A stretch of DNA of 64,000 bases from Amycolatopsis sulphurea (GTDB lineage: Bacteria > Actinomycetota > Actinomycetes > Mycobacteriales > Pseudonocardiaceae), in NCBI RefSeq assembly GCF_002564045.1, contig NZ_PDJK01000001.1, positions 744,001-808,000 of the forward strand. The letters are read 5' to 3'. Positions 7,892 to 52,372 of the stretch are shown one piece after another. The notes beneath the pieces were generated by a model. That model did not search any database and had not been told where the DNA came from. It worked only from the letters and a program-made list of their open reading frames with translations. The translations under genes were made by a program, and so were the position numbers. The first letter of the stretch is position 1. Each line of letters starts with the position of its first letter.

Positions 7892-7897
7892 CCGTGA

Positions 7898-8305: not shown

Positions 8306-8440
8306 AATGGCAGCCTCGCAGGGGTGATCTGCGGTGCTCTAAGCCTGGATCCGCCGATGGATTGTCGTCTGGGGCGGCGTGTAATAGGTGAAGTGCCTTC
8401 TGGCCTGCGATAGTGAGAGTCTCTGAGGTTCTCAAGTCGC

Positions 8441-9030: not shown

Positions 9031-9033
9031 GCG

Positions 9034-9600: not shown

Positions 9601-9603
9601 CGG

Positions 9604-11878: not shown

Positions 11879-11884
11879 TTGCAG

Positions 11885-11891
11885 CCTCCCC
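11885..11891 (-). promoter_or_regulatory. Ribosome binding site for the gene starting at 11878
   Basis: GGGGAGG on the minus strand, six bases before GTG 11878. It decides between this start and the longer upstream frame. Confidence 0.7.
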
Positions 11892-12097
11892 TTTGTCCCA
11901 CCGTGGGCATCCATGCCTCGCACCGATAGTAGCCAATCGGCAACAACCTGTCCGCAGAACACCGGAGATCACCCCTGTGAGCGTCCACACCCCGCTGACC
12001 TGGCCATATAGTCGCGCGTCGACACTAGGCCAGGAGTGTTTGACGTCGGTCGGATGGACGTGCCACGGACGTTGACAGCCCCGTAGGGGTGCTGTGC

Positions 12098-35764: not shown

Positions 35765-37029
35765 GCCGGCCGGACGTCGTCGTCTGCGGTGCCGGGGTCG
35801 CGGGCCTCGCCGCCGCCTGCGCGCTGGGCCGGTTGGGCCAGCGGGTTCTGGTGCTGGAGAAGCAATCCGTGCCTGCGCCGGTGGCCAAGGGCGAGGTGCT
35901 GCAGCCGGGCTCGCTGGCGATCCTGGACGAATGGGGCGTGACCGAGCGACTCGAAGCAGCCGGTGCGATGCGACTGTCGCGCCTGGTCGCCCGTGACTCG
36001 GACGGCTCGCCGCGTATGGTGCTCGACTACAGTCGGCTCCCGGCCGCGCAGCCGTGGCTGCTTGCCCACGACTATCAGGCGATTCTCGATGCGCTGACCG
36101 ACGCGCTCCCTCCCGGTGTCGAGGTGCGCCGGGGCGTGCGCGTCCGGGAACCGCTGCGGTCCGGTGGCCGGGTGACCGGCGTGCGGTGCGACGACGGCGA
36201 CATCCCCGCGGCGCTCCTCGTGGCCGCGGACGGCGTCTCCTCCCGCCTGCGCACGGCGGCCGGGCTGAGCGCCGAGCGCCACGACTACCCACATCGCCTG
36301 GCGGCGTTCGAGCTGCACGACGTCGACGAGATCGAGCCGGACTTCTCGGCCTACGTCGCCGACGACGGGTTGAGGCTGCACTATCCGTTGCCGGGCCGTC
36401 GGGTCCGGCTCTACGTCCAGGTCGCGCCGGACGAGTTGCGCGGGGTCGGCCAGGACGGCCTGGGCGCGTGGGCGGACCGGGTGCTCGACGGATGCGCCGG
36501 CCTGGCACCGCTGGCCGCGGCGTTTCGGGCGGGGCTCGCGCGCCGGCAGGTGCTGCCGGTGTCCCGGTCGATGGCGAACACGTTGGTGGCGCCGGGAATC
36601 GCGCTGGTGGGCGAGAGCGGCCACTCCGTGCACCCGATGGCCGCGCAAGGCATGAACAGCGCGATCGCCGACGCGCACGGGCTGGCCACGATGGTGCGTC
36701 AAGGTGGAACGCTGGCCGCCGGTGTGCTCGACCACGCGTTGCGCCGCTACGACGAGGCACGCCGGGCCGATCTCGCGCACATCGGCCGGACCAGCCACAA
36801 TGCCGCGCGGATGATCACGACCCAGTCGTGGGCCGGCCGGCGCGCGCTGTCGGGCACGGGGGCCAACGACCGGATCCGGCACGAGGTCATGCACACGATG
36901 TCGGGGCTGGGGGTGCGCAAGCTGACCCCGCTGGACCGGCTGCACCAGATCGGGCTGGTGCCCGACCCGCGCGCCACCCGGCTGCCCTCGTGGGTGCGCC
37001 CCGCCGAGGCCCGGGAACCGGCTCGATGA
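35761..37029 (+). CDS. FAD-dependent monooxygenase/epoxidase
   Basis: 422 aa from ATG 35761. FAD motif VVVCGAGVAGLAAACALGRL, the DG motif VAADGVSSRLRTAAGL, and the second FAD motif IALVGESGHSVHPMAAQGMN, where the usual GD is GE. A group A flavin monooxygenase. In a cluster with a class II cyclase the natural guess is epoxidation of a prenyl double bond before cyclisation (inference). Last gene of the five-gene operon; a strong hairpin follows. Confidence 0.88.
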   Translation: MSRPDVVVCGAGVAGLAAACALGRLGQRVLVLEKQSVPAPVAKGEVLQPGSLAILDEWGVTERLEAAGAMRLSRLVARDSDGSPRMVLDYSRLPAAQPWLLAHDYQAILDALTDALPPGVEVRRGVRVREPLRSGGRVTGVRCDDGDIPAALLVAADGVSSRLRTAAGLSAERHDYPHRLAAFELHDVDEIEPDFSAYVADDGLRLHYPLPGRRVRLYVQVAPDELRGVGQDGLGAWADRVLDGCAGLAPLAAAFRAGLARRQVLPVSRSMANTLVAPGIALVGESGHSVHPMAAQGMNSAIADAHGLATMVRQGGTLAAGVLDHALRRYDEARRADLAHIGRTSHNAARMITTQSWAGRRALSGTGANDRIRHEVMHTMSGLGVRKLTPLDRLHQIGLVPDPRATRLPSWVRPAEAREPAR

Positions 37030-37067
37030 GTCCACTGTGGTCACTCCGGGCGGGAATCACCGCTTCG

Positions 37068-37107
37068 CCGTCCTGTTTCCCCGGAAAGTGCCGGGGAAAC
37101 AGGACGG
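37068..37107. terminator. Bidirectional hairpin between convergent genes
   Basis: A perfect 17-bp stem (CCGTCCTGTTTCCCCGG / CCGGGGAAACAGGACGG) with a six-base loop AAAGTG. It sits exactly between the monooxygenase stop (37029) and the methyltransferase stop (37113), so it serves both strands. Confidence 0.85.
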
Positions 37108-37112
37108 GCCGG

Positions 37113-38123
37113 TCACGCGCGGGCGTACTCCAGGACCACCAGGCCGTTCGCTCCGTCGATCCGTCCTCGCCGGACGAGACCGGCGGCCGCGGCGAGTCCG
37201 TCGAAGTCCTCCGGACGGCGCTCGCGACCGCCGAGCAGGGTCAGCGACTGCAGATCGAACGACGAGTTGTTCTTGGCGTGCTCGGCACCGGCGAGCACCT
37301 CCACCACGAGCACGCGTCCATCGCCGGCCGCCTCCGCGCACCGGGTCAGGATCCGGGTGGCGTCCGCATCGGGCCAGTCGGTCAGCACGCGCGAGACGAT
37401 CAGCACGTCGTGGCCGGTGGGCAGCGGGTCGAAGAAGCTGCCGCCGACGAACTTGGCCCGGCCGCCGAGCGTGGCGAGGAACTCCTCGGCCTCCGGCCGG
37501 ACCTCGGGCAGATCCAGCACCGTGCCGCTGAGGTGCGGGTGCGCCTTCAGCACCGCCTCCAGCAACGCCCCGGTGCCGCCGCCGACGTCGATCACGCTCG
37601 CCACGGCACTCCAGTCGTGGCGGGCGGCGACCTCCGGTCCGGTCTGCCAGGCGAACCCGGCCATCGTCGCACCGAAGAACGTCCGCAGGTCCTCGTCTTC
37701 GCGGTAATCCGACCAGAAGTCCTTGCCGTGCACGGCACCGTAGGCCGACCGGCCGGTGCGGACCGCGTGCAGCATCCCGCTGTAGGCCAAGTCCATCTTC
37801 CGGCCGGGGCCTTCGGCGTCGAGCCACGACCGCAGCAGCGCGTTGGATTCGTCCAGCAGCGCCCGGGAAACGCTGGTGAGCGCGTGCTCGCCCGGCGCGG
37901 GCTCGGCGAACAAGCCGACCGCGACGAGGTGGCGCAGCAGGCGGGCCAGCGCATCCGGATCGGTGCCGGATGCCCGCGCCAGCGCGCCGGTCGTGGTGTG
38001 CCCGTCGCGGATCAGTTCGGGCAGCTTCAGCGCGACCGCGGTCCGCACCGCGAACGGCGTGGCGAGGTCGACGAGCGCGGCGAGCGCCGCGGTTCCGGTG
38101 GTCTCACTGGTCTCGCTGGTCAA
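37113..38123 (-). CDS. SAM-dependent methyltransferase (O-methyltransferase family)
   Basis: 336 aa. The TTG start at 38123 is backed by AAAGGA five bases upstream. N-terminal dimerisation helices (LATPFAVRTAVALKLPEL), SAM motif VIDVGGGTGALLEAVLKAHP and VLDLPEVRPEA. Where this family normally has VLHDW with the catalytic His, it reads VSRVLTDWPDADATRI: the base is Thr. It may therefore methylate a more nucleophilic atom (C or N) or need no base. Divergent from the dioxygenase-P450 pair and probably a tailoring enzyme of the terpenoid cluster. Confidence 0.85.
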   Translation of the reverse strand: MTSETSETTGTAALAALVDLATPFAVRTAVALKLPELIRDGHTTTGALARASGTDPDALARLLRHLVAVGLFAEPAPGEHALTSVSRALLDESNALLRSWLDAEGPGRKMDLAYSGMLHAVRTGRSAYGAVHGKDFWSDYREDEDLRTFFGATMAGFAWQTGPEVAARHDWSAVASVIDVGGGTGALLEAVLKAHPHLSGTVLDLPEVRPEAEEFLATLGGRAKFVGGSFFDPLPTGHDVLIVSRVLTDWPDADATRILTRCAEAAGDGRVLVVEVLAGAEHAKNNSSFDLQSLTLLGGRERRPEDFDGLAAAAGLVRRGRIDGANGLVVLEYARA

Positions 38124-38267
38124 GGTGGTCCTTTCGGGAATGCCCCGGAGGTGGTGTCGGCAGTGCTCTGAAAGATGGCACGGAAAGCCGTCGTCGGCAA
38201 GGTTCAGGCCGTAGTCGCAGCATCCGTTCCGCGGTGTGCGGAATGGCTCTCAAGAATGGGTGAAAAA

Positions 38268-39098
38268 ATGAGTTCTCTGGAGGTTCGTCCCCTCACCGGG
38301 GCATTGGGGGCCGAGGTTCGCGGCATTGCCCTCGCCGACGTCGACGACGCCTTGTTCGGTCGGATCCACCACTTGCTGCTCGAACATCTGGTGCTGTTCT
38401 TCCGCGACGAGGCCGGGCTCACCCCCGCCGACCACAAGGCGTTCGGCAGCCGTTTCGGGCAGCTGGAGGTCCACCAGTTCCTGCCGAAGCTGCCCGAGCA
38501 CGAGGAGATAGTGGTCCTCGACTCCGACGCGGGGGCCAAGGCCGACGTGTGGCACACCGATGTCACCTACGCGCAGTCGCCGCCGATCGCCTCGGTCCTG
38601 CAGATCGTGCAGTCGCCGGAGGTCGGGGGCGACACGATGTGGAGCAACCAGTATCTGGCGTACGAGGCGCTGTCCGAGCCGATCCGGGAACTGGTCGACG
38701 GCCTCACCGCGCTTCATGGGTTCGCATACGGATCGTTCCGCAGTGAGGCCGAGCATCCCGTTGTGCGCGTGCACCCGGAAACCGGCAGGCGTTCGCTTTA
38801 CGTCAATCGCATGTTCACCCAGCGCATTCCGCAGCTGACGGCCGGGGAAAGCGAGGCGTTGCTGGCGCACCTGTTCACCGTGTCCGAAAGCCCGCAGCGG
38901 GTGTGCCGCTTCAGGTGGAACGAGGGCGCGGTCGCGGTCTGGGACAACCGCGCCACCCAGCACTACGCCGTCAACGACTATTCGGCGCGCCGGGTCGGCC
39001 GCCGGGTCACGGTGCTCGGCGACGAGCCCAAGGGCGACGACGCACGGTGGGCGCACCACCAGGGGCCGGGCATGAGCGCGACCGCGGTGAAGAAGTGA
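38268..39098 (+). CDS. TauD/TfdA-family Fe(II)/2-oxoglutarate dioxygenase
   Basis: 276 aa from ATG 38268 (SSLEVRPLTGALGAEVRGIA); an in-frame ATG at 38256 is possible. Iron ligands: HxD in DVWHTDVTYAQSPPIAS and the distal His in NRATQHYAVNDYSARR; the 2-oxoglutarate Arg lies in RRVGRRVTVLGDEP. Length and order are normal for the family. Four bases separate it from the P450. The two enzymes are oxidative tailoring candidates for the terpenoid. Confidence 0.9.
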   Translation: MSSLEVRPLTGALGAEVRGIALADVDDALFGRIHHLLLEHLVLFFRDEAGLTPADHKAFGSRFGQLEVHQFLPKLPEHEEIVVLDSDAGAKADVWHTDVTYAQSPPIASVLQIVQSPEVGGDTMWSNQYLAYEALSEPIRELVDGLTALHGFAYGSFRSEAEHPVVRVHPETGRRSLYVNRMFTQRIPQLTAGESEALLAHLFTVSESPQRVCRFRWNEGAVAVWDNRATQHYAVNDYSARRVGRRVTVLGDEPKGDDARWAHHQGPGMSATAVKK

Positions 39099-39102
39099 CC
39101 TC

Positions 39103-40284
39103 ATGAACGACACGGATTTCATGGAGCTGTACTGGCGGGACCCGCACCGCGCGCTGGAGTACGCCCGCGAGCACACTCCGGTGCGCGAGGTCACGTTCGA
39201 GGCGGGGCCGACCTGGCTCGTCACCCGCTACGCCGACGTGCGTGCCGGGCTCGCCGACCCGCGTCTGGCGAAGGACTACCGCGCCGCGCTGTCCGACGAG
39301 GAACGCGCACTGGCGCCGCCGGGGTTGCCCGCGCCCATGTCGCACATGCTCACCTCCCTCGACCCGCCCGATCACACGCGGCTGCGCCGGCTGGTCACCC
39401 GTGCGTTCACCGTCCGGCGGATCGCCGAGCTGCGTCCTCGCGTGGAGTCGATCGCCGCATCCCTGCTCGCCGAGCTGCCCACCGGCGAACCCGTGGACCT
39501 CGTGGCGCGCTATGCGATTCCGCTGCCGATGGAGGTGATCTCCGAGCTGATCGGCGTACCGGAACTGGACCGCGAGGACTTTGCCCACTGGTCGACGGTA
39601 CTGATCGACGAGTGCCCTGAACCCGAACTGATCCGCGCTTCGGCCCAGCTGGCGGACTATCTGAGCGGGCTCGTCGCGCTGCGCCGCAAGGATCCGGACG
39701 ACGCTCTGCTGTCCGGGCTCATCGAGGCCTCCGAGGGCGGTGAACACCTGTCCGACATCGAGATCGTCGCGATGGCGATGCTGTTGCTGATGGCCGGCCA
39801 CGAGACGTCGGCGGTGTTCATCACCAACTCCGTGCGGACCTTGCTGGCCGACTCCGCGGCGCTCGAGCGGCTGAAGCCGGACACGGCGGCGAACCTGATC
39901 GAGGAGCTGCTGCGCTGGATCTCACCCGCCCTCAACGCCTCGCTGCGGTTCGCCACCGAGGACCTGGAGATCGGCGGGGTGCGGATCCCGCGCGGCGCCT
40001 CGGTCACCCTCTCGACCGGAGCCGCCGACCGCGACCCCCGCCGGTTCCCCGATGCGTCCACTTTGGACCCGGATCGCGACACCACCGGACACCTCGCGTT
40101 CGGCCACGGCATCCACCGGTGCCTCGGCGCGGCACTCGTCCGGCTCGAGGCGGAGGTCGCCGTGCCGGCGCTGTTCGACCGCTTCCCGAACCTGCGGGCG
40201 GCTGCTCCGGACGAGGAGCTGACGTTCCGGCGCAGCGTGCACGTCCACGCGCCGAGGGCGTTTCCGGTGGTGCTGCGGCCGTAG
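39103..40284 (+). CDS. Cytochrome P450
   Basis: 393 aa. I-helix LLLMAGHETSAVFITNSV (the Glu-Thr proton relay), ExxR in LIEELLRWISPALNASLRF, and the heme loop HLAFGHGIHRCLGAALVRLE with the axial Cys. A soluble bacterial class I P450. Cotranscribed with the TauD gene. A palindromic repeat follows 23 bp after the stop. Confidence 0.93.
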   Translation: MNDTDFMELYWRDPHRALEYAREHTPVREVTFEAGPTWLVTRYADVRAGLADPRLAKDYRAALSDEERALAPPGLPAPMSHMLTSLDPPDHTRLRRLVTRAFTVRRIAELRPRVESIAASLLAELPTGEPVDLVARYAIPLPMEVISELIGVPELDREDFAHWSTVLIDECPEPELIRASAQLADYLSGLVALRRKDPDDALLSGLIEASEGGEHLSDIEIVAMAMLLLMAGHETSAVFITNSVRTLLADSAALERLKPDTAANLIEELLRWISPALNASLRFATEDLEIGGVRIPRGASVTLSTGAADRDPRRFPDASTLDPDRDTTGHLAFGHGIHRCLGAALVRLEAEVAVPALFDRFPNLRAAAPDEELTFRRSVHVHAPRAFPVVLRP

Positions 40285-40306
40285 TCGGCGCACCTTCGGG
40301 ACAGGA

Positions 40307-40357
40307 CTGTGAAGGGGCCCTTCACGGACTCAGAGTCCGTGAAGGGGTCCTTCACAG
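40307..40357. terminator. VKGPFT palindrome between convergent genes
   Basis: CTGTGAAGGGGCCCTTCACG, then GACTCAGAGTC, then the mirror half, 51 bp. It fills the gap between the P450 stop (40284) and the amine oxidase stop (40361). Together with 30488 this supports use as a transcription stop. Confidence 0.6.
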
Positions 40358-40360
40358 CTT

Positions 40361-42349
40361 TCAGCCGTGGTGTCCGGGGCGGGGGAGGTCGAGCGCGGGG
40401 TTCGCGGCGAAGAAGGCGACCGGCTTGAGGTGGAAGCCCACCTTGGACACCGGCATCACCGGCCAGTCCTCGGGTCGGGGGACGTGGTTCGTGCCGAACG
40501 TGTACCAGACGACGACATCGGTGTCAACGAGTGGCCGGTCGGCCTTGGCGTATTCGGCGAGGCCGTCGTCGCCGGGACGCTGGTTGGGGTATTCGCCGGA
40601 GGCATAGCGCTGCGCCGGATCGTAGGCGGTGACCCACAGATGCCGGTAGGCGAAGCCCGCGCGCCGGCTCGTCTGCGATCCGGTCTGCGCCAGGGGCAGG
40701 ACGTTCGTGCCCGGCATCAGCTGGTAGCCGACCGGGCGGCCGGTGTGGTGGCGCACCGACGGGTTCACGACTGTCCAATTGCGACCGGCGAGCGGATCGA
40801 CCAGCCGCTGCGCCTCGCTTTCCCGGGCGAGCAGTTTCGACTGTGCGGCAAAGGCATTGTGCTGCTCGGCGCCGGGCATGGCGACAGTGTCCACTTCGTA
40901 CACGCTGTTGTGTTCGCCGTCGACGGACATGTCCAGCCGCATGTTGAAGAAGTGCTGATGGTTCGGCGCGTACAGGCCCGGAGCCACCACCGTGCCGCAC
41001 ACCGGATCTTCGCCCTCGTACGCGCCGGTGGACACGATGCCGGTCAGCTTCACCTCGAACTCGATGGTGCCGTCGAGGTAGAAGTACCAGAAGAACCCGT
41101 AGTCGTAGTTGTTCGCGGTGGCCCAGCAGGAGACCACGAGCCGTCGCTGGCGGCGGGTCTCCGCGTGCCCGAGGTTGCCGTCCGTGTGCTTCCAGACGAG
41201 GTTGTCGTCCTCCTCGTGGATGCAGATGGCGTTCGGCAGCGTCACCGGATCGCCGTCGTCATCGCACATCACGACGTCCAGGTAGCGGATTTCGCCGAGG
41301 CAGTCGCAGCCCAGCGCGAGCGAGTTGAGCCACGGCCCGATGCCGCCTTCGCCGATGTCGAAGGCGTTCTTCACCCGCTGCGACGGATTCGGGTCGCCAT
41401 AGGGCACGTACAGCTCCGACATCGAGGCCCGGTACACGATCGGCCGCTCGCGTCCGCCGTCGTCGTAGCTGATCTGGTGCAGCACAAGGCCTTCACGCAT
41501 GGTGTAGCCGACGTTCAGGCGCCAGCGCTGCCAGCGCAGCTCGTTGCCGTCGATGGTGAAGCTCGGGCCGTCCGGCTGCGTGATCTCCAGCGGCCGCAGA
41601 TCGGACCGGGTCGAGCCGAAGGCCGGGACGTTGTCCGGGTAGCCGCCGATCTCGCCGGTGACCAGCTCCGGGATGTAGTTGCCGTGCCGGGGCGGGATGG
41701 GCACGACCCCGTGATCGACGAGTTCGGCGACCTCCATCCGATCGATGTCGACCAGGGCGGTCAGCCCTTCGACCGGGTGCGCGTACCGGTTGTCGAACTT
41801 GCCCTGCCGCACGTAGATCTGCGGGCGCATCAGGCGCCGGGCCGGGTCCTCGGCCGGGCCGGTGTGGCCGGCCGCCCACAGGTCGATCGCGACGGAGTCC
41901 AGGTCGGTGATCCCGCGGCGCCGCAACGCGTCCTGGAAACCGGGGTCGGCGCGCAGGACCGTGTCGCACTCGTCGAATTCGTCGCGGGAGAAGCCCGGCT
42001 GCGCGTGGGGCACCTCGCGCCACGACACGAGTTCGCCGCGGCTGATCGAGACGACGGCCTCGATGGTGGTGCGGCTGTCCCGGTCGCGCAGGACGACGAA
42101 CGCCTCGCGGCCGGCCGGTACACCGTCGAGCACGGACCGTTTGGCCGGTTCGTGCAGCTCGACGCTGATGAACCGCGTCATGGAGCCGAGTCCCTTGGCG
42201 CCCTTGAGGATCGCGGAGGTGGCCGCGATCTCTTCGGCGGTGAGCGGCGCCAGCGGATGCACGGTCGCCGGGGTCTCGCCCGGCTGCCCGTGGCAACATT
42301 TCGTTTCGTCCCGGGGGGCCGGCTGAGCGGCGTTTTCCCCTGCGGTCAT
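40361..42349 (-). CDS. Copper-containing primary amine oxidase
   Basis: 662 aa. Of the family it shows DIGEGGIGPWLNSLALGCDC, RYLDVVMCDDDGDPVTLPNA and the cofactor motif ATANNYDYGFFWYF, where the first Tyr of NYDY becomes topaquinone. Copper-binding His residues are seen in PNHQHFFNMRLD. No signal peptide. It oxidises a primary amine to an aldehyde with H2O2 and ammonia. Its start overlaps the stop of the ABC transporter gene (ATGA), making it the last gene of the lanthipeptide operon. That is unusual company for this enzyme; its substrate may be the peptide itself (inference). Confidence 0.88.
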   Translation of the reverse strand: MTAGENAAQPAPRDETKCCHGQPGETPATVHPLAPLTAEEIAATSAILKGAKGLGSMTRFISVELHEPAKRSVLDGVPAGREAFVVLRDRDSRTTIEAVVSISRGELVSWREVPHAQPGFSRDEFDECDTVLRADPGFQDALRRRGITDLDSVAIDLWAAGHTGPAEDPARRLMRPQIYVRQGKFDNRYAHPVEGLTALVDIDRMEVAELVDHGVVPIPPRHGNYIPELVTGEIGGYPDNVPAFGSTRSDLRPLEITQPDGPSFTIDGNELRWQRWRLNVGYTMREGLVLHQISYDDGGRERPIVYRASMSELYVPYGDPNPSQRVKNAFDIGEGGIGPWLNSLALGCDCLGEIRYLDVVMCDDDGDPVTLPNAICIHEEDDNLVWKHTDGNLGHAETRRQRRLVVSCWATANNYDYGFFWYFYLDGTIEFEVKLTGIVSTGAYEGEDPVCGTVVAPGLYAPNHQHFFNMRLDMSVDGEHNSVYEVDTVAMPGAEQHNAFAAQSKLLARESEAQRLVDPLAGRNWTVVNPSVRHHTGRPVGYQLMPGTNVLPLAQTGSQTSRRAGFAYRHLWVTAYDPAQRYASGEYPNQRPGDDGLAEYAKADRPLVDTDVVVWYTFGTNHVPRPEDWPVMPVSKVGFHLKPVAFFAANPALDLPRPGHHG

Positions 42350-44043
42350 GGCACTTCCTCCAGGCGGCGATCGGGGTTCCAGTGACCGAGCAGGTCCCGG
42401 TAGAGCGGAGAGGTCCCGACGAGCGTCCGGTGATCGCCGACGGCCGCGCCGGTGCCGTCGAGCACCAGCACGCGGCGGGCGCGCAACGCCGAGCTGATCC
42501 GGTGCGCGATCACGATCAGCGTACAGTCGCGCTGCGCGAACGCCTCCTCCGCCCGGCGTTCGGCAGCCGGGTCGAGATGGCAGGTCGACTCGTCGAGCAC
42601 GACCACCGCGGCCGGTGAGAGGTAGGCCCGCACCAGCGCGATCAGCTGACGCTCACCGGCCGACAACGCAGACGGCACGACCTCGTCGCCGAGCCGCGCC
42701 ACGAGTTCGTCCGCGCCGATCGCGGTGACCGCTTGCGCAACCTGTTCGGGAGCGGCGTCCGGGGCGAAGTAGGTCAGGTTGTCCCACACGGTGCCCGCGA
42801 AGACGTATGCCTCTTGCGGGATCAGCGTTCGAGCCTGAGCGAGCCGTTCGGGGGACAGCTCGGACACCGGGACGTCACCGAGCAGGACCGCGCCCGCATG
42901 GGGACGCAGCAGCCCGCAGAGCAGCCCCGCCAGAGTGGACTTGCCGATGCCGCTGGGTCCGACGATGGCGAGGTGGTCGCCCGGCTCGACGACGAGATCG
43001 AGCCCGCGCAGCACGGGCTCGGCGTGCGCTCCGTAGGCGAAAGTGAGGTCGCGGACAGTCAGTCCGCCACCTCGGCCGACTTCGGCACGGCGCTCTGGTT
43101 CGGCCGGCGGCTCGGCGGCGTCGAGGATGCGGCGGAGGGTGACGGTGTACCGCAGCCCGCTGCCGCCGATCGCGGCCATGAGGTTGCGCAGCACCGGCTG
43201 GAGTCCAATGAGGACGTACGTGAGCCCGCCCAGCACGGCCCCGGCGGTGAGCCCGCGGCTGACCAGCCACGGTCCGGCGACGAGCAGGACGACCAGCGGC
43301 ACCCAGCCGCCGACCGCCAGGCAGAGACTGCGGGCCGCCGTGACACCGGCGATCGCGCGCTCCGCGTCGGCCTGCGCCCGGATCGGCCCGGCGACCATGT
43401 CCGCCGCGTGCTCTTCGGCACCGGTCGCGGCGATGTCGCGGGTGCCGGCCAGCACGGCCCCGGCGGTCACGGCGAGCCGCTCGTCGGCGTGCACCGACCG
43501 GCGGAACCGTTCGGCCGCCATCCCGAGCGTGCCCAGGAAAAGGCCGAGGCCCAGCAGGAACGGCGGCAGCAGCAAGGCCACGATCACCGGGTCGACCGAC
43601 AGCATGCCGACCACGACGCCCACGACCGTGACGACGAACCCGCGCAGCACCACGATCAGCCCGGCGTAGGTGTCCCGGACGATCTCGACCTGGTGGGTCA
43701 GGCGCGCGATGGCCCCGTCGTCGGCGCGCCCGTGCACGGCGTGCCGCAGCGCGCCGCCGACGACCTTGCGCACGAGGGTGTCGCGAAACGGCTCGACCAG
43801 CGCGCCGAGCAGCCGATACACCTGCCGCGAGCCGAGGGCACCCAATCCGGCGGCGACGAGCAGCAGGCCGAGCCACGCGAGACCCACGCCGGGGCGATTC
43901 GCCAGGAAACCGGAGTCGACGGCGTTCGCGACCGCGACGCCGGAGAGTGCGGCGGGCAGCGCCTCGGGCACCGACCACAGCAGCAACGCCACCGCCGGCC
44001 CGCGCGGCATCGTCTTGATACCGAAGGCTATTTCGCGTTTCAC
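42346..44043 (-). CDS. ABC transporter, fused permease/ATPase (second half)
   Basis: 565 aa from GTG 44043 (GTGA overlap with the upstream half). Five to six membrane helices, then an ATPase: Walker A AIVGPSGIGKSTLAGLL, signature LSAGERQLIAL, Walker B VVVLDESTCHLDP (Glu replaced by Ser context: LDES), H-loop VIAHRISSAL. With the next upstream gene it forms a heterodimeric exporter in the position of RamA/RamB of morphogenetic lanthipeptide operons. Confidence 0.9.
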   Translation of the reverse strand: MKREIAFGIKTMPRGPAVALLLWSVPEALPAALSGVAVANAVDSGFLANRPGVGLAWLGLLLVAAGLGALGSRQVYRLLGALVEPFRDTLVRKVVGGALRHAVHGRADDGAIARLTHQVEIVRDTYAGLIVVLRGFVVTVVGVVVGMLSVDPVIVALLLPPFLLGLGLFLGTLGMAAERFRRSVHADERLAVTAGAVLAGTRDIAATGAEEHAADMVAGPIRAQADAERAIAGVTAARSLCLAVGGWVPLVVLLVAGPWLVSRGLTAGAVLGGLTYVLIGLQPVLRNLMAAIGGSGLRYTVTLRRILDAAEPPAEPERRAEVGRGGGLTVRDLTFAYGAHAEPVLRGLDLVVEPGDHLAIVGPSGIGKSTLAGLLCGLLRPHAGAVLLGDVPVSELSPERLAQARTLIPQEAYVFAGTVWDNLTYFAPDAAPEQVAQAVTAIGADELVARLGDEVVPSALSAGERQLIALVRAYLSPAAVVVLDESTCHLDPAAERRAEEAFAQRDCTLIVIAHRISSALRARRVLVLDGTGAAVGDHRTLVGTSPLYRDLLGHWNPDRRLEEVP

Positions 44044-45686
44044 CCGAACACCTCCCGGTAGCCGGGCCGCGCCCACAGCTGCTCGTGCGTCCCGGTCGCG
44101 GCCACCTTGCCCTTGTCCAGCCAGACCACGAGGTCGGCGCGGGCCGCGGTCGCCGCGCGGTGCGTGACGATCAGCCGGGTGCGCCCGCCGTGGTCCTCGG
44201 TGAGCGTGCGGGCGATCTGCATTTCGGTCACCATGTCCACACTGGACGTTGCGTCGTCGAGAACCAGCAGGCGGCGTGCGGGCCACGCACGGGCCAGACC
44301 GAGCCGCTGGTACTCGCCGCCGGACATCGGCGCCTCGGTCAGCGGCGTCGCATAGCCGTCGGGCAGCCGGTTGACGAACTCGTTCGCGTGCGTCGCGCGC
44401 GCCGACGCTCGCACGTCGACTTCGCGCCCGGCAGCCACGGCGTCCCCGATCGACGCACCGACGAGCACGGGCCGCTCGAACGCGCATCCGACCGCGGCCC
44501 GCAGCGCGTGATGATCCAGCGCGGCCAGCGCAACGCCGTCGAGCAGGACCTCTCCCTCATCCGGTGTACGCAGTCGCGCGGCGACCTCCGCGAGCACCGA
44601 CTTGCCCGCCCCGGACGCTCCGACCACGGCCACCGCGGCCCCTCCCGGGACGCGCAGAGTCACGTTCTCCAGCAGCACTGCATCATCCGCGCGCACGGTC
44701 ACACCACGGAATTCGAGGGTGCCGGGTCCGTCCGGCAACGGTTCGGCGCCGTAGGGGAGCGGTTCGGTGCCGAGCACCTCGCCGACCCGGTGCACTCCTG
44801 CCTTGGCTCGGGCGAGCCTGCTGAAGACCCCGGTCAACGCGCCGAGCCCGCCGCCGATCACCGCGTACTGGCTGGCGGCGAACAGCTCGCCCGGAGTGAT
44901 CCGGCCCCGCAGCAATTCGAGGCCGCCCGCCGCGAGCACGGCGACCAGCACGAGCGGGCCGACCAGAGTGGCCTGCGCGCTGGAGCGTGCCATGACCTTC
45001 CAGGTGCCGATGCCGTGCTCGTGCAGCTCGGGCAGCTCCGCCAGCACGCGGCGTTCCTCTGCACCGACCGTGCCGGCGGCGGCGATGGTCCGCGCCCCGC
45101 CGAGGGACTCGGCGAGCCGCGCCGCGATCGTGCCCTGCGTCCGCAGGTAGGCCAGCATCACCTCGGCGCTGCGCAAGGCGAACGTCCGCAGCACGACTAC
45201 CACCAGCGCCAGCCCGGCCAGCAAGGCGAGTGCGAGCCACAGGTCGATCCACGCCAGCAGCACGAGGCTGCCGATCGGCGGCAACGCGGCCGAGACCGTC
45301 GTGACGAGCGCCGGACCGGCCTGCGCGGCCTCGGTGGCGCTGCCCGACACCCGCGTGACCAGGTCGCCGGTCTCGAACCGGGCGGAACGGGCCGGGCCGA
45401 TCGCGAGCACGTGCCGCACGACGCGATCGCGCAGCCACGCCGTGGTCCCGGCGACGCAGGCGGTGCCCGCGTAGGCGTCGATCACGTCGAAGATGACGTT
45501 GGCGGCGATCAGGAGCCCGGCGGCGACCACCCAGAATGTGCTGCTGTGCCCGGTGATCAGTGCGTCGACCGCATTGCCCAGCACGGTGGGCAACGCGAGC
45601 GTGCTGAGGCTGCCGACGAGCCCGGCGAGCCCGATCAACGGCAGCCAGCCGCCCGCGCGCCGTGCCACGTCACCGAAGGTGATCAT
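44040..45686 (-). CDS. ABC transporter, fused permease/ATPase (first half)
   Basis: 548 aa from ATG 45686, overlapping the peptidase stop. N-terminal helices (LPLIGLAGLVGSLSTLALPT), Walker A AVVGASGAGKSVLAEVAARL, signature MSGGEYQRLGLARAWP, Walker B LLVLDDATSSVDMVTEM, H-loop LIVTHRAATAA. The Walker B catalytic residue is Asp rather than Glu, as in the degenerate site of heterodimeric exporters. No C39 peptidase domain, so leader removal falls to the neighbouring prolyl oligopeptidase. Confidence 0.9.
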   Translation of the reverse strand: MITFGDVARRAGGWLPLIGLAGLVGSLSTLALPTVLGNAVDALITGHSSTFWVVAAGLLIAANVIFDVIDAYAGTACVAGTTAWLRDRVVRHVLAIGPARSARFETGDLVTRVSGSATEAAQAGPALVTTVSAALPPIGSLVLLAWIDLWLALALLAGLALVVVVLRTFALRSAEVMLAYLRTQGTIAARLAESLGGARTIAAAGTVGAEERRVLAELPELHEHGIGTWKVMARSSAQATLVGPLVLVAVLAAGGLELLRGRITPGELFAASQYAVIGGGLGALTGVFSRLARAKAGVHRVGEVLGTEPLPYGAEPLPDGPGTLEFRGVTVRADDAVLLENVTLRVPGGAAVAVVGASGAGKSVLAEVAARLRTPDEGEVLLDGVALAALDHHALRAAVGCAFERPVLVGASIGDAVAAGREVDVRASARATHANEFVNRLPDGYATPLTEAPMSGGEYQRLGLARAWPARRLLVLDDATSSVDMVTEMQIARTLTEDHGGRTRLIVTHRAATAARADLVVWLDKGKVAATGTHEQLWARPGYREVFG

Positions 45687-47629
45687 GGGATGTCCAGTCC
45701 GGTGTGCGCGGCGAGGAACGCGAGCATGTCGCCGGCCAGCTGTATCGCCCGGGTAGCCGAGCTTGCGCCATGGCCGACGTCGGGCTCGTGGCGCAGCAGC
45801 ACCGGCCGCCCGCTCGTGGTCGCCCACTGGAGTGCCGCGCACATCTTGCGGGCATGCATCGGGTCCACCCGGGTGTCCCCGCCGAACGTCGTGAACAGCA
45901 CCGCAGGGTAGGCGACGCCCTCCCGAACCCGGTGGTACGGCGAATAGCCCAGCAACCACGCCAGGTGCTCGGGATCCTCGGCGGTGCCGTACTCCTCGCG
46001 CCACTGCGGTCCGAGGCCGAACTGCTCGTAGCGCACCATGTCGAGCAGCGGCGCCGAGCACACCGCGGCGGCGAACAGTTCCGGACGCTGGGTCAGCGCG
46101 CCCGCGACCAGCAACCCGCCGTTCGATTCACCGCAGATACCCAGCTGCGCCGGCGTGGTCCAGCCCTCGGCGATGAGGTGCTCGGCCACGGCGACGAAAT
46201 CGTCGAAGACGTTCTGCTTCCGGTCGAGCATGCCGTCCCGGTGCCATTGCTCGCCTTCTTCTCCACCACCTCGCACCTGGGCAGATGCGAAGACACCGCC
46301 CGCCTCCACCCACGCGAGGATGTAGCTGGAGTACGAAGGCGTCAGCGGAATGCCGAAACCGCCGTAGCCGTAGAGGATCGTGGGCCGCGGACCGCTGCCG
46401 GGCTTCGCGAGGACCACGACCCGGATCGGGGTGCCGTCCGGAGAAGTCGCGGTCACTTGCCGGCTGGTGACCTCGGGCACGGCGATGCCGGGCGGTCCCG
46501 CCCACAGCGTCGTCTGGTGTGTCTCGGCATCGTAGCGGTGGACCGCGCCCGGGGTCACGCTGTCGGTGTAGCTGAACCAGGCCTCACGCCCGCGGGTCGA
46601 CACCGATCCCAGCGATCCGGCACCAGGCACCGGCACCTCGGCGACCCGGTCGCCGGTGCCGAGGTCGTGCAGGCTCACCTCGCCGATCGCGTGGCGGATC
46701 CGGCTCACCACGAGCATCCCGTCAAGCACGGCCAGGCCGCTGATCACCGCAGCCGGGTCCTCGGGGATCAGCTCACGCCACTGCGAGGGCGCGGAGGGGT
46801 CGGCCACGCACACGCGGCCTCGCGGCGCGTCCTGGTCGGTGACGATGTACAGGAGATCCTTGTGCATCATGGCGGCCGCACGCCCGTCCGGTCCTTCGTG
46901 GACGGTCCGCAGCGCGCCGGTGCCGAGGTCGACGAGCCACAGGCCGGTGCCTTCGGAGAGGATCAGCCACCGGCCGCCCTCGTCGATTTCCAGGCCGAAC
47001 GATCCGGTCCGGCCGGTCACGGCGACGTCCTGACCGACCGGGGTGCCGACCCGGTGCAGCCACACCCGCTGCTCCCGCACGTAACAGAAGTCCCTGGCGC
47101 CGGGCAGCCACGCGACCGGCGTGGACCGGCAACCGCGGACCGGGCCGTCGAGTGGCTCGCCCGATTCGACGTCGAGCACGTGCAGTACCGAGTTTTCGGT
47201 TCCCCCGCGGGAAATCTGGAACGCCAGGCGGGCGCCGTCGTGGCTGGGATGCCACGCGTCGAGCACGACCAGGCCGTCGCTGTCCAGCGCCATCGGATCG
47301 AGGAGTACGCGCGGGGCACCGTCCGATTCGGACACATAAAGCACAGGGTGTTCCTGACCCGGTTCCTGCCGGAGGAAGAATTGCCGATCGCCGCGCCACC
47401 GCGGCGCGGTCACCACACCGGTCGCGCTCAGCCGCCGCACGTCCTGGTGCAGCCGCCGGCGTGCGGGCAGGGTGGCGGCGTGCGTGCGCCAGCGGCCGTC
47501 CTCGCCGTCGAGCCAGCTCCGCGTCTGCGTGCTGGCGCCGTCTTCGAGCCACCGGTAGGGATCGGGCACGCGGTGGCCGTGCAGATCGTCGACCAGGGGA
47601 AGACGTTCGGCGAGGTCGCGGACGGGCAC
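45683..47629 (-). CDS. Prolyl oligopeptidase (S9A)
   Basis: 648 aa from GTG 47629, chosen for AAAGGA six bases upstream. A seven-bladed propeller with the domain start VDDLHGHRVPDPYRWLEDGA, then the alpha/beta hydrolase: Ser in GICGESNGGLLVAGALTQRP, Asp in TTFGGDTRVDPMHARK, His in EPDVGHGASSATR. It cuts after proline. In flavipeptin biosynthesis (FlaP, Kribbella) such an enzyme trims the class III lanthipeptide leader. Here it follows the precursor gene in the same operon, and the precursor has a single leader proline (Pro12). Confidence 0.92.
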   Translation of the reverse strand: MPVRDLAERLPLVDDLHGHRVPDPYRWLEDGASTQTRSWLDGEDGRWRTHAATLPARRRLHQDVRRLSATGVVTAPRWRGDRQFFLRQEPGQEHPVLYVSESDGAPRVLLDPMALDSDGLVVLDAWHPSHDGARLAFQISRGGTENSVLHVLDVESGEPLDGPVRGCRSTPVAWLPGARDFCYVREQRVWLHRVGTPVGQDVAVTGRTGSFGLEIDEGGRWLILSEGTGLWLVDLGTGALRTVHEGPDGRAAAMMHKDLLYIVTDQDAPRGRVCVADPSAPSQWRELIPEDPAAVISGLAVLDGMLVVSRIRHAIGEVSLHDLGTGDRVAEVPVPGAGSLGSVSTRGREAWFSYTDSVTPGAVHRYDAETHQTTLWAGPPGIAVPEVTSRQVTATSPDGTPIRVVVLAKPGSGPRPTILYGYGGFGIPLTPSYSSYILAWVEAGGVFASAQVRGGGEEGEQWHRDGMLDRKQNVFDDFVAVAEHLIAEGWTTPAQLGICGESNGGLLVAGALTQRPELFAAAVCSAPLLDMVRYEQFGLGPQWREEYGTAEDPEHLAWLLGYSPYHRVREGVAYPAVLFTTFGGDTRVDPMHARKMCAALQWATTSGRPVLLRHEPDVGHGASSATRAIQLAGDMLAFLAAHTGLDIP

Positions 47630-47706
47630 GGCCGATCCTTTCACGAAGTGTGGGTCCTGGGCGGGGGACCAAGCCTCGCCCAGGACCCTTGTGCCACTGC
47701 GCAATG

Positions 47707-47835
47707 TCAGTGGCAGAGCAGCAGGCTCAGGTTGCTCGGCGTGTGGGACGCGCAGCCGAGAACGGTCAGCGTGGAACCGCCGCCGCCGCCCTTGCCGCCG
47801 GGAGCCTCCAGGCCCTGCATGTCGAGAAGTGCCAT
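47707..47835 (-). CDS. Class III lanthipeptide precursor (AmfS/SapB-like), 42 aa
   Basis: ATG 47835 to TGA 47707. Leader MALLDMQGLEAP holds the helical motif of class III leaders; Pro12 is its only proline. Lys15 sits in a glycine run (residues 13-20), followed by two labionin/lanthionine motifs of type Ser-x-x-Ser/Thr-x-x-x-Cys: Ser21-Thr24-Cys28 (STLTVLGC) and Ser34-Ser37-Cys41 (SNLSLLLC), ending in His42. This matches the SapB pattern. It lies between lanKC and the peptidase gene, with an excellent ribosome site. Too short for standard ORF calling. Confidence 0.93.
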   Translation of the reverse strand: MALLDMQGLEAPGGKGGGGGSTLTVLGCASHTPSNLSLLLCH

Positions 47836-47839
47836 TTTC

Positions 47840-50422
47840 TTACACCTCCTTCAGGTGCTCGTTACTTGACGAATGCCCAGTGGCATCCGGGTTCTGGGGG
47901 TCGGCCAGGAACGGGAGCCGCACGGGTTCGCCGTGCCGCACCGAACCGAGCGCGAACAGCACGCCCGCCGTTCCTGTGGCGAAGTCCATGGACAGGCGCA
48001 ACAACTGGTCGCCGGGGAAGGCGAGCCCGTCGGCGCAGGGCACCGCGTGCCAGCTCAGCCCGCGCACCAAGGTGTCCACTGCGGACGGTTCGGCGGCCAG
48101 GAGCATCCCGGCCCGGCCGGTGTAGAGGCCGGGCTGCACGTAGTAGGCACTCCGCGTCACCGCGCGCAGCCTGGTCAGCATTTCGGCGAGCTGGTCGTCC
48201 GGCCGGTGGTGCAGATACCGCTGCAGCACCAAGGCGATCCCGGCCGAGCCCTCGTCCAGGTAGGGCAGCGTCCGCCAGCCCTGGTCGACCTGCGCGGTGC
48301 CGTCATCGGCGCGGACGCACCGTCGAAGGTCCTGGCGCAGCGCGATTTCCGCGCGATCGAGCAGCGCTTGATCGCCGGTCTGTTCATAGGCGTGCAGGAA
48401 CAGCAGCGCCGGTCCGGCCGAACCGAACATGAGCCCGGCCCGGGGATGGTCGCCCCCGCTGATCTCGGGCACATCGGTCACCCCGCCGAGCCGGTCGGAG
48501 ACCTGGTCCACGATCGACAGCGCGGGCTCGATGCCGAGATCGTCCCGGAAGTGCAGGAGGTTGAGCCCGATGCCGGCCAGCCCGCCGTGCAGGCCGAGTT
48601 CGGTGGCGTCCACCGGCATCGCGAGACAGCGCTCGACGATTCTCAGCGCGTCGTGGCGATGACCCAGCTCGGCTAGCACGTACGCGACGCCGTGAAGTCC
48701 ATTGTAGAAGCCGGTGGTGGTGCCCTCGGCAGGCGTCAAGGCATGCTTGCGCAGCCAGTCCTCGTGTTCGGGGAAGCGTCCGGCACCTGTGGCGGCGAGG
48801 GCGTACAGCACACCCGACGCGCCGTGGGCGAGACTGATCCCGCCGCCGGGGGAGAACTGCGCGATGTCGCCGGGGAACAGGCGATCGTCGCGGTCGGGCG
48901 TGGCGGAGGCGAGGATCGAGGTCCGCAGCGCAGTCCGCACTTCGTCCCAAGTGGACACTCCGGGCAGCGGAAGGCCGGGCATCCGGGACGGCGCCGGTGC
49001 CGAGCCCTCGATGGTGCGCACAGCGTCGTCCAGCGCGCCCGGCGGCAGCGGGAAGACCTCGGCCGCGTACTCCGCGATCTGGCGGGCCTTACCGGAGTCG
49101 AACCGCGTGGTGATCGTGGCCTGCGGAGCGAACATGCCCAGGCACATGCAGGCGAGCGCGTACCGGTCCACTTCGATGCCGGCCCGGTCGGCGGGCGCGG
49201 AGAATGCCGGATGTGCCAGCGACGAGCGGGCCTCGTCGGAGACCAGGGTGGAGACCTCGAAATCGATCAGCACAATCCGGCCCTCGGCCGTGACCAGGAT
49301 GTTCTCCGGGTGCAGATCGCCGAACACGACGCCCCGGCCGTGCAGCGCGTCGACCGCGGCGGAGACCTTGGCCAGGATGCCCAGCGCCCACTCGACGTAT
49401 TCGGCCAGCTCGGCCGGCCCCGGATCGGGGTGGGTCAGCGGGTAACGGTGCACCAGCAGGCGCTGCAGCGGGCTGCCGTCGACGAACTCCTCGACGAGGA
49501 AGTGATGGCCGCCCAATTCGAAGGAGTCGAGCACCGCGGGCACCACGTCGAGCCCGGCGAGGCGAGTCAGCATTTCGCGCTCGTGCCCGATCCGGGTCAC
49601 CGCGTCGCGGCCGGTGGCGTCGAGGCCCGCGTACGGCCTGCCTTCCTTGAGCACGACCCGGTCGCCACTGCGATTCTCCCGGCCGAGGTAGACCCCGCCG
49701 CCATTGGAGAACTGCATCGCGCTTTCGATCGTGTAAGGCAGATCCGTCGTCGTCACCGCCGCGCGGGCGGCGAAATGCGGCTCCAGGAAGGACGGCAGGG
49801 AAATCCACGGCGGGAGTGCGAAGGTCGGGCCGCGAACGTCGGGCACCAGCACGCCTTCGGCATCCTCGATGGCGAGTACACGCTCACCATTGTCGGAGAC
49901 GCAGAAACGCTCGGTGAAACCGCCATACCGCACATACAGTGGGCCGTCACCGTAACGAAGATCACTGAGAATATAAGGGCCGGCGACGCCTTGGAGCAGG
50001 CCGTCCAGCTCAGCGAGCACAGCCTCGAACTGGGCGTCGGAAAACGGGTAGATGGTCACCAGTTTCCCGCTCGAGCCACGGAACGCTGATTTGGCGTTGA
50101 ACATAACCGCGACATTCCTGCTGCGCAGGAACTTGAAGGGGATACGTTTCTCCAGGCAGAAGTCCCACACGGTGTCAAGCACCCGTTCGGCGTCCGCCAG
50201 CCGGGAGGAGACGTGGATCTTCCAGCCCTGGGTCGGCACCACCGCACCGTCGGGCGCGTAGTACATCCAGGTGTCGCTCGGCTCGTGCGCCCAGTCCCGC
50301 GGAGTCGTCCGTGCGGTGACCGCGAAGTCGGTGTTCTCGCCGGCATGACGGGACGGCTGGTCGTAGAACAGCCGGTCGGCAAGGCAATAGACCTCATAGC
50401 TCGCCTCGTCGTTCACCGTCAT
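47840..50422 (-). CDS. lanKC: Class III lanthipeptide synthetase LanKC
   Basis: 860 aa from ATG 50422. Three parts: an N-terminal lyase-like region (WKIHVSSRLADAERVLDTVW, NAKSAFRGSSGKLVTIYP) to about 220; a Ser/Thr kinase around 230-500 with HRD-like VVFGDLHPENILVTAEG and DFG-like IVLIDFEVSTLVSD; and a LanC-like cyclase around 530-860 (SLAHGASGVLYALAATG, GLHGGLAGIGLNLLHF, MFGSAGPALLFLHAYE). The zinc ligands Cys-Cys/His of LanC are not evident (SWHAVPCADGLAFPG), as expected for class III. It phosphorylates, eliminates and cyclises the precursor encoded just downstream. First gene of the operon. Confidence 0.93.
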   Translation of the reverse strand: MTVNDEASYEVYCLADRLFYDQPSRHAGENTDFAVTARTTPRDWAHEPSDTWMYYAPDGAVVPTQGWKIHVSSRLADAERVLDTVWDFCLEKRIPFKFLRSRNVAVMFNAKSAFRGSSGKLVTIYPFSDAQFEAVLAELDGLLQGVAGPYILSDLRYGDGPLYVRYGGFTERFCVSDNGERVLAIEDAEGVLVPDVRGPTFALPPWISLPSFLEPHFAARAAVTTTDLPYTIESAMQFSNGGGVYLGRENRSGDRVVLKEGRPYAGLDATGRDAVTRIGHEREMLTRLAGLDVVPAVLDSFELGGHHFLVEEFVDGSPLQRLLVHRYPLTHPDPGPAELAEYVEWALGILAKVSAAVDALHGRGVVFGDLHPENILVTAEGRIVLIDFEVSTLVSDEARSSLAHPAFSAPADRAGIEVDRYALACMCLGMFAPQATITTRFDSGKARQIAEYAAEVFPLPPGALDDAVRTIEGSAPAPSRMPGLPLPGVSTWDEVRTALRTSILASATPDRDDRLFPGDIAQFSPGGGISLAHGASGVLYALAATGAGRFPEHEDWLRKHALTPAEGTTTGFYNGLHGVAYVLAELGHRHDALRIVERCLAMPVDATELGLHGGLAGIGLNLLHFRDDLGIEPALSIVDQVSDRLGGVTDVPEISGGDHPRAGLMFGSAGPALLFLHAYEQTGDQALLDRAEIALRQDLRRCVRADDGTAQVDQGWRTLPYLDEGSAGIALVLQRYLHHRPDDQLAEMLTRLRAVTRSAYYVQPGLYTGRAGMLLAAEPSAVDTLVRGLSWHAVPCADGLAFPGDQLLRLSMDFATGTAGVLFALGSVRHGEPVRLPFLADPQNPDATGHSSSNEHLKEV
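47844..47851 (-). promoter_or_regulatory. Ribosome binding site of the precursor, inside the lanKC end
   Basis: AAGGAGGT, a full anti-Shine-Dalgarno match, eight bases before ATG 47835. It is formed by the last lanKC codons (Lys-Glu-Val), whose stop TAA (47840-47842) is four bases before the precursor ATG. The precursor can thus be both coupled to lanKC and strongly initiated on its own. Confidence 0.85.
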
Positions 50423-51112: not shown

Positions 51113-52372
51113 TTGCCGCAACTCCGGAGGCCGCACCCCGCCGTGCCGCAGCACCCGACCTCAGCCGTGGACGTCTACCGGGAGCCGAGCCCGTTCACGC
51201 GGCACGCTTCGCCCCGCTCGCACGGCTTTTCCCGCGCACACAGCCTTCCCCGCGTGCACAGCCTTCCGGCGTGGTCCCACGCGACCCGGACGCTGACCGG
51301 GTCGCTCGGCAGTGTCCTTTCGCGCCAGGTCTTTTCATGCCAGGCCCTTCCGCGGCAGGTCCAGCCGTGGCGGCCGCGTTTCACCCGATCGTCCGAGCAC
51401 GGCGGCGCGGCCGGCTCGTGCGTGCTGCACGAAGCCGTCGAGCCCTGGCAGGGAACGGACGACACCCCCGCCGGCCCGAGCGCGGCGATCGTCGCCATGC
51501 CCGGCCTCGCCCTCGACGAGGCGACGGCCATGATGCGCGCACGCAGCCTCGATCCGTCCGTCGAACCCGGCCCGCACTGGCGGCACGCGCCCACCGAAGC
51601 ACCGCGCACCGTCGAGATCCACGCGTTGGGCGTCTTCCGCGTGACCCGGAACGGGCTGGCCGTGCCCCGGACGGCATGGCAGTCGCGGAAAGCGCGTGAC
51701 CTGGTGAAGATCCTGGTGTCGCGCTGCCGGCCCGTCTCCCGGGACCAGCTGATGGAAATGCTGTGGCCCGATGTCGATCCCGGCAAATCCAGCAACCGGC
51801 TTTCGGTGCTGCTCAGCACCGTGCGCCAGGTCCTGCAGCCGGTCAAGGACGGCCCGCAGCCGTTGCTCACCGACGGCACGTCGGTCTGGCTGGACGCGAA
51901 CCTGGTGAGCATCGACGTCGCGGAGTTCCGCAAGATCGCCGCCCGCGCCGTCGAGGCATACCGCCGCGGCCGCCCCGACGCCGTGGACCGCATGTACCGC
52001 GCCGCCGGCCTCTACACGGGCGACTTCCTCGAAGACGACCCCTATGCCGATTGGGCACAGCACACCGTCGAAGAACTGCGCGCCCTGCACCAGGCGGTCC
52101 TGCGCGCCCTGATCCAGCACTGCCAGGCCTGCGGCGACGTCGACGAGGTCGTCCGCCACACCCTGCGCCTGTTCGCGGACGACCCCTACGACGAGCAGGC
52201 GCACCTCAACCTGATCAAGGTGCTGCTCACCGCCGGCCGTATCGGCGAAGCCCGCCGCCGCCACGACATCTACCGCCGCTACATGACCGAAATCGGCGTC
52301 GAGCCCCGGGCCATGCCCGCTTTCCGGCCGCGGTCGGTGACGGTGCCGGTTTACCGGCCGACGACGTCGTGA
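51113..52372 (+). CDS. BTAD/OmpR-like transcriptional activator
   Basis: Start uncertain: TTG 51113 has GGAGG four bases upstream and gives 419 aa; ATG 51497 (MPGLALDEATAMM) gives 291 aa and removes a His/Ser/Arg-rich stretch that looks unstructured. The conserved part is a winged helix (VEIHALGVFRVTRNGLAVPR, SRKARDLVKILVSRCRPVSR, LMEMLWPDVDPGKSSNRLSV) and a bacterial transcriptional activation domain (YTGDFLEDDPYADWAQHTVE), the SARP arrangement. Divergent from lanKC and probably its activator, in place of the RamR-type regulator of SapB clusters. Confidence 0.82.
   Translation: MPQLRRPHPAVPQHPTSAVDVYREPSPFTRHASPRSHGFSRAHSLPRVHSLPAWSHATRTLTGSLGSVLSRQVFSCQALPRQVQPWRPRFTRSSEHGGAAGSCVLHEAVEPWQGTDDTPAGPSAAIVAMPGLALDEATAMMRARSLDPSVEPGPHWRHAPTEAPRTVEIHALGVFRVTRNGLAVPRTAWQSRKARDLVKILVSRCRPVSRDQLMEMLWPDVDPGKSSNRLSVLLSTVRQVLQPVKDGPQPLLTDGTSVWLDANLVSIDVAEFRKIAARAVEAYRRGRPDAVDRMYRAAGLYTGDFLEDDPYADWAQHTVEELRALHQAVLRALIQHCQACGDVDEVVRHTLRLFADDPYDEQAHLNLIKVLLTAGRIGEARRRHDIYRRYMTEIGVEPRAMPAFRPRSVTVPVYRPTTS

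Follow-up and report, generated by a model that had tools for sequence, protein, structure and literature searches.

A Copper Amine Oxidase Gene Closes a Flavipeptin-Like Class III Lanthipeptide Operon in Amycolatopsis sulphurea

On the minus strand of a 64,000-nucleotide stretch of the Amycolatopsis sulphurea genome (hereafter the window), positions 40361–50422 hold one operon. It consists of lanKC and a gene for a 42-residue precursor, followed by genes for a prolyl oligopeptidase, a pair of ABC exporters, and, last, a copper amine oxidase (CAO). The oxidase is inherited together with the precursor among the genomes of the bacterial family, and it carries a glycine at an amine-channel position that is aromatic in most of its homologs. 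We lean, by a narrow preference, toward a role in which the CAO would oxidize the single lysine of the precursor, Lys15, to allysine after the peptidase has cut behind Pro12.

Gene Content of the Operon

The lanKC gene (47840..50422, minus strand) encodes an 860 aa class III lanthionine synthetase with the Pfam domains RamC_N, Pkinase, and LANC_like that scores 1058 bits against the NCBIfam LanKC model NF038151 (cut-off 575). Next to it, the precursor gene (47707..47835, minus strand) encodes a 42 aa flavipeptin-like peptide of the SapB/AmfS family (MALLDMQGLEAPGGKGGGGGSTLTVLGCASHTPSNLSLLLCH) that scores 56.5 bits against NF033212 (cut-off 25). Its leader carries the class III motif in the form LLDMQ (LLDLQ in three relatives) and its core carries two Sxx(S/T)x3C ring motifs, so that synthetase, with its RamC_N, kinase, and cyclase domains, and precursor, with its leader and Sxx(S/T)x3C core, are both of the class III kind. 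The remaining genes, likewise on the minus strand, encode a prolyl oligopeptidase of family S9 (45683..47629; 648 aa from an inferred GTG start; Pfam Peptidase_S9_N and Peptidase_S9), ABC exporter half 1 (44040..45686; 548 aa; Pfam ABC_membrane and ABC_tran), ABC exporter half 2 (42346..44043; 565 aa; Pfam ABC_tran), and an AGAO-like TPQ copper amine oxidase (40361..42349; 662 aa; Pfam PF01179, e value 4.6e-153).

The initial annotation of this DNA had described a class III operon on the minus strand that encodes a prolyl oligopeptidase, both ABC halves, and a CAO and has four-base overlaps from the peptidase gene onward; it had also noted an intact NYDY cofactor motif in the oxidase and a single leader proline in the precursor. 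Every gene proved to be in its place, and three four-base overlaps link peptidase to exporter half 1 (45683–45686), half 1 to half 2 (44040–44043), and half 2 to CAO (42346–42349). The cofactor motif is present as NNYDYG with Tyr415 as the TPQ tyrosine, and Pro12 is the sole leader proline, just as Lys15 is the sole lysine of the precursor. Two features were absent from that annotation. A long, terminator-like hairpin lies on the minus strand directly 3′ of the CAO stop codon (40306..40358; −41.8 kcal/mol, z = −7.2), and a SARP/AfsR-type regulator gene runs divergently from the operon on the plus strand (about 51497..52372, start inferred; Pfam BTAD, 4.5e-18); DNA comparison found similarity to this regulator kept with the block in all three relatives described later.

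The hairpin is one pair from a dispersed palindrome family (GAAGGGNCCCTTC), the members of which are often paired and match 14 times between positions 21890 and 61906 of the window against 0.13 expected. Up to the hairpin, the plus strand (35035–40284) encodes an FAD monooxygenase-like protein, a TauD-type dioxygenase, and a cytochrome P450, none with DNA similarity to the fetched flanks of the three relatives. Elsewhere in the same genome lies a second LanKC gene, 45% identical to the first (G000:C2:1898970-1901498).

Relation to Flavipeptin and Other Class III Lanthipeptides

The window cluster resembles SapB/AmfS-type class III lanthipeptide clusters in that both LanKC and precursor score above the NCBIfam cut-offs and the precursor has two Sxx(S/T)x3C motifs; we know of neither a peptidase nor an oxidase within clusters of that type. 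The prolyl oligopeptidase encoded inside the window cluster is a feature of the flavipeptin type. In the protein database, the nearest precursors belong to the SapB/AmfS family and come from Kribbella, Streptosporangium, Actinocorallia, and Pseudonocardiaceae; one of these, Kfla_2467 of Kribbella flavida (P0212), is 84% identical to the window precursor. Flavipeptin comes from K. flavida, and we take Kfla_2467 to be its precursor, FlaA. The two systems are thus alike in being class III, in their near-identical precursor family, and in an in-cluster prolyl oligopeptidase that cuts, or in the window cluster is predicted to cut, after a leader proline. For flavipeptin, this enzyme is FlaP, which cleaves the modified peptide after Pro(−12) of the leader (Voller et al. 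2013, as described in a passage of PMC10885120). According to the same passage, the route by which the residues between the FlaP cut and the core are removed was unclear at the time, and later work points to metalloproteases (PMC10885120).

Peptidases of seven related clusters are 56.8–61.7% identical to that of the window. Three of these clusters, from three genomes of another family (L221, L222, and L225), have the gene order lanKC, precursor, peptidase, ABC, ABC, and in the other four (L220, L223, L224, and L227) the peptidase is placed after the exporters; no oxidase was found in the stretches fetched for any of the seven. On the basis of gene content, set against these clusters that have the peptidase and lack the oxidase, we classify the window cluster as a class III lanthipeptide cluster of flavipeptin-like type that additionally encodes a CAO. 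It differs from the flavipeptin type by adding the CAO and a lysine three residues after the leader proline (Pro+3), the comparison set being the seven related peptidase clusters and not the cluster of flavipeptin itself.

Co-Inheritance of Oxidase and Precursor

The initial annotation had proposed that a lack of co-conservation would speak against a link between oxidase and lanthipeptide genes. Co-conservation is what we find: among 390 genomes of the family, the precursor occurs in four (the window's own, G000, and G764, G011, and G128), the same four encode an oxidase at least 87% identical to the window CAO, and in all four the two genes lie in the same operon with the oxidase as its last gene. 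The next oxidase among the 390 genomes is 68% identical (G232), and the other matches listed are at most 60% identical. Amycolatopsis circi, its genus mate G011, and Labedaea rhizosphaerae all retain the same block of six genes, which is therefore more than a chance arrangement.

An alternative reading is that the CAO is a neighboring catabolic gene hitch-hiking with the cluster. Oxidases of the broad family are indeed common, being present in 53 of 100 relatives, and none of the other genes of the operon was found on the 12.3-kb contig that carries the 68% relative of G232. However, in every comparison DNA similarity between the window and its relatives stops at base 40361, the oxidase stop codon. 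Within the stretches fetched, the window shares no DNA with its relatives downstream of the oxidase; a downstream flank is common to A. circi and G011, and the flanks of Labedaea and the window are unrelated. Since the flanks of the window, the A. circi/G011 pair, and Labedaea are unrelated, we place the four operons, as judged from these alignments, at three genomic locations, with the oxidase last each time. The same similarity end point thus recurs at three locations, and the four-base overlap between oxidase and exporter genes is present in three of the four genomes (oxidase starts inferred). The oxidase is also under purifying selection as strong as that on its operon neighbors: its dN/dS is 0.096–0.163 (six pairs from the four genomes), compared with 0.169–0.202 for lanKC, 0.184–0.239 for the peptidase, and 0.099–0.186 for the exporters, at dS similar to that of the oxidase. 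Co-inheritance, a common end point of similarity at all three locations, and the selection data together speak against the hitch-hiking gene, which we regard as very improbable.

Two side observations concern these loci. In Labedaea (L163), a 47-codon open frame (MTTDLVDPVHEVEIL...) that is absent from the other three genomes lies between the second ABC gene and the oxidase gene. In G232 (L172, contig 248), the stretch 5615–11980 has the oxidase gene between those of a 1111 aa SARP/TPR regulator and a methyltransferase.

Beyond the four genomes, no other lanKC with a nearby oxidase was seen by eye among the matches listed for 297 genomes (oxidase cut-off 1e-200). Likewise, no oxidase was found in the stretches fetched for 29 LanKC-related loci, which comprise 17 (L164–L171, L173, L174, and L180–L186; shortened by contig ends in L164, L173, and L174) and a further 12 (L220–L231).

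The Oxidase and Its Amine Channel

The CAO has the residues expected of a TPQ copper amine oxidase: besides the TPQ tyrosine Tyr415, these are the copper ligands His464, His466, and His622, the catalytic base Asp331, and the partner tyrosine Tyr317. It matches AGAO (1av4) with 522 bits over residues 27–657, and its single-chain AlphaFold model (pLDDT 83.8) overlays AGAO structures with TM scores of 0.88/0.94 at 42% identity; no obvious signal peptide was seen by eye. The window CAO therefore shares with AGAO and other TPQ copper amine oxidases the fold and all catalytic residues. It differs from AGAO in the channel, where the alignment pairs Gly335, Leu157, and Trp340 with AGAO Tyr302, Pro136, and Tyr307, the last of which presumably lines the amine channel.

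A passage of PMC3382800 describes few positions in the amine channel of TPQ oxidases as conserved, and it gives an aromatic residue at HPAO-1 position 323, Pro or Ser at 155, and a bulky residue at 156. It further describes two family members with channels broad enough for whole peptides, and broad-channel members that accept peptides as substrates (PMC3382800). Gly335 of the CAO corresponds to HPAO-1 position 323 and AGAO Tyr302; position 323 lies four residues past the base aspartate 319, as does Tyr302 past its own. We compared this position among the best 120 of 7998 oxidase homologs. It is glycine in the 17 nearest listed group members (P0003–P0018 and P0044), Trp in 19 and Gly in none of the next 23 (P0019–P0041), and Tyr in 78 and Gly in none of the 80 further homologs; in a set of 78 distant oxidases, Tyr occurs in 64 and Gly in one. 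The group was chosen by the Gly motif itself, so that 17 of 17 is its definition, and what the analysis adds is a single branch for these sequences and the rarity of the residue outside it. Their grouping has support of 99/91 in a tree of 59 rows from which the fragment P0044 was left out, and of 0.53 in an earlier quick tree. From sequence and tree, then, we assign the CAO to a clade whose aromatic channel residue became glycine.

Trp340 stands where ordinary relatives mostly have Leu, and its side chain may take up some of the room that Gly335 opens. Positions 340 and 157 are special less strictly than 335, and Leu157 occurs also in 10 of the 23 next homologs. Three other differences from AGAO (Y296A, W168Y, and L137W) were considered as clade evidence and dropped because ordinary relatives share changes of this kind.

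The closest solved relative, AGAO, is named a phenylethylamine oxidase, and this fits an alternative in which the CAO turns a small free amine into an aldehyde that is coupled to the peptide or used as a signal or source of H2O2, the peptide itself not being a substrate. If the aldehyde were coupled through an imine, a dedicated coupling enzyme would be unnecessary. On the other hand, within this bacterial family the oxidase is strictly co-inherited with a single precursor family, and its channel residue is specific to the clade; both facts point to a special substrate, and we consider a small-amine substrate unlikely.

To see whether other clade members keep similar company, contig sizes can be compared, with the best 120 matches listed per search and with the proviso that equal size is not proof of the same contig. 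Six of the 17 Gly335 oxidases are on a contig equal in size to that of a listed relative of exporter half 2, compared with one of the 103 others (Fisher p 2e-5); sources overlap in all six pairs and differ in the single match among the 103. Two of these six pairs correspond to the A. circi and Labedaea clusters already described. The remaining four contigs (6853, 9607, 16625, and 9153 bases) come from both sides of the deepest split in the Gly335 group, and their equal sizes suggest that further clade members adjoin relatives of the exporter of the operon. Equal size can arise by chance: a precursor (P0129) and an exporter (P0271) of one source each lie on a contig of 2645 bases, a length that would not accommodate the genes in their usual order, and this match is probably due to chance. 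The exporter relatives P0264 and P0294, on the 9153- and 9607-base contigs and apparently accompanied by Gly335 oxidases, are proteins of 860–868 aa with carboxypeptidase-regulatory-like domains. Exporter half 2 of the window shares 97% identity with a protein from Amycolatopsis panacis (P0243).

The Leader Lysine and a Proposed Modification

The segment PGGKGGGGG is unchanged in all four operons, with Pro12, Gly13, and Lys15 invariant, and places Lys15 three residues past the predicted cut site behind Pro12. Among related precursors (the best 120 of 131), the linker from proline to core contains a lysine in 25 sequences, and in all 25 at Pro+3; in one of them (P0234) a second lysine follows directly. 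Kinship may explain part of this constancy. Nor does the lysine strictly mark the oxidase. In L221 and L222, a PGRK linker, and hence a lysine at Pro+3, occurs together with the peptidase, and no oxidase was found in either cluster. None was found at 1e-100 anywhere in the genome of L221 (G494), and that of L222 (G586) has only a 46% relative located elsewhere. A strict one-to-one pairing was thus not found, and the Pro+3 lysine is present in four of four clusters with the oxidase versus two of seven without it, a weak contrast. In a further pair on 9201-base contigs (P0145/P0246), an exporter 89% identical to that of the window is size-matched with a lysine-free precursor (PGGGGC...); this match would count against the link between oxidase and lysine if that contig bears an oxidase.

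We infer the following sequence of chemical steps from the gene-level observations. LanKC would form rings in STLTVLGC and SNLSLLLC, and the prolyl oligopeptidase would cut the modified peptide behind Pro12, freeing Gly13-Gly14-Lys15-Gly5-core. The CAO, with a channel putatively reshaped for a flexible, Gly-rich peptide, would convert the ε-amine of Lys15 with O2 to an aldehyde (allysine), releasing NH3 and H2O2. The aldehyde could then condense with the Gly13 amine to a cyclic imine in a 12-membered ring, which would shield the N-terminus from aminopeptidases, and the ABC pair would export the product. For residues 13–42 with four dehydrations, the calculated mass is 2721.35 Da with an intact lysine, 2720.32 Da with allysine, and 2702.31 Da with the cyclic imine, the last being 1.03 Da away from the 2703.34 Da expected of the unoxidized peptide after a fifth dehydration.

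Gly13 offers a second amine at the new N-terminus, and the CAO might instead act on its α-amine to give a glyoxylyl group that blocks aminopeptidase trimming, Lys15 serving for recognition. The invariance of Gly13 in the four operons agrees with this, as does the occurrence of the Pro+3 lysine without an oxidase, which is expected of a recognition residue. However, five of the seven oxidase-free peptidase clusters also encode one or more precursors with a glycine directly after the proline. Moreover, broad-channel copper amine oxidases are known to accept peptidyl lysine, whereas we know of no case of N-terminal glycine oxidation by this family. That such members do use peptides (passage of PMC3382800) likewise favors the lysine, and we think oxidation of Gly13 rather improbable. 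A point against the oxidation of Lys15 is that, once the peptidase has cut, further trimming may eliminate the linker, by analogy with the removal of the corresponding flavipeptin residues described in the passage of PMC10885120.

Allysine formation at Lys15 remains the reading that we slightly prefer. A more far-reaching version, which we put forward tentatively and hold to be somewhat less probable than its opposite, is that the whole CAO clade was recruited as a peptidyl-lysine oxidase, so that a position-locked leader lysine would become allysine, close a 12-membered imine, and provide an aldehyde or imine warhead together with a third macrocycle.

Relation to Known Systems and Significance

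Chains named lysyl oxidase, which we take to be Pichia pastoris lysyl oxidase (PPLO), are distant from the window CAO in sequence (about 88 bits). The activity of PPLO is the one proposed here for the window CAO, and PPLO is likewise a TPQ enzyme, with a peptide-wide channel according to the passage of PMC3382800. Searches of the open-access literature, judged by title and listed abstract, brought up no lanthipeptide with a copper amine oxidase, oxidative deamination, or allysine, in agreement with the earlier claim that none with such oxidative deamination is known. Amine oxidases are not named, by term search, in the main text of a large lanthipeptide survey (PMC7268733). The pairing of a copper amine oxidase with a RiPP is not wholly new because, as a passage of PMC13097080 reports, a copper amine oxidase also accompanies graspetides of group 41. 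Group 41 resembles the present system in this co-occurrence and differs in being another RiPP class with large precursors; the passage assigns the oxidase no role (PMC13097080).

The idea is open to direct test because related clusters occur both with the oxidase and without it. If true, oxidative deamination by a quinone-copper enzyme would join the tailoring chemistry of lanthipeptides and would amount to a bacterial version of lysyl-oxidase chemistry acting on a ribosomal peptide; an enzyme able to install an aldehyde at a defined lysine would also be a useful handle for peptide engineering.
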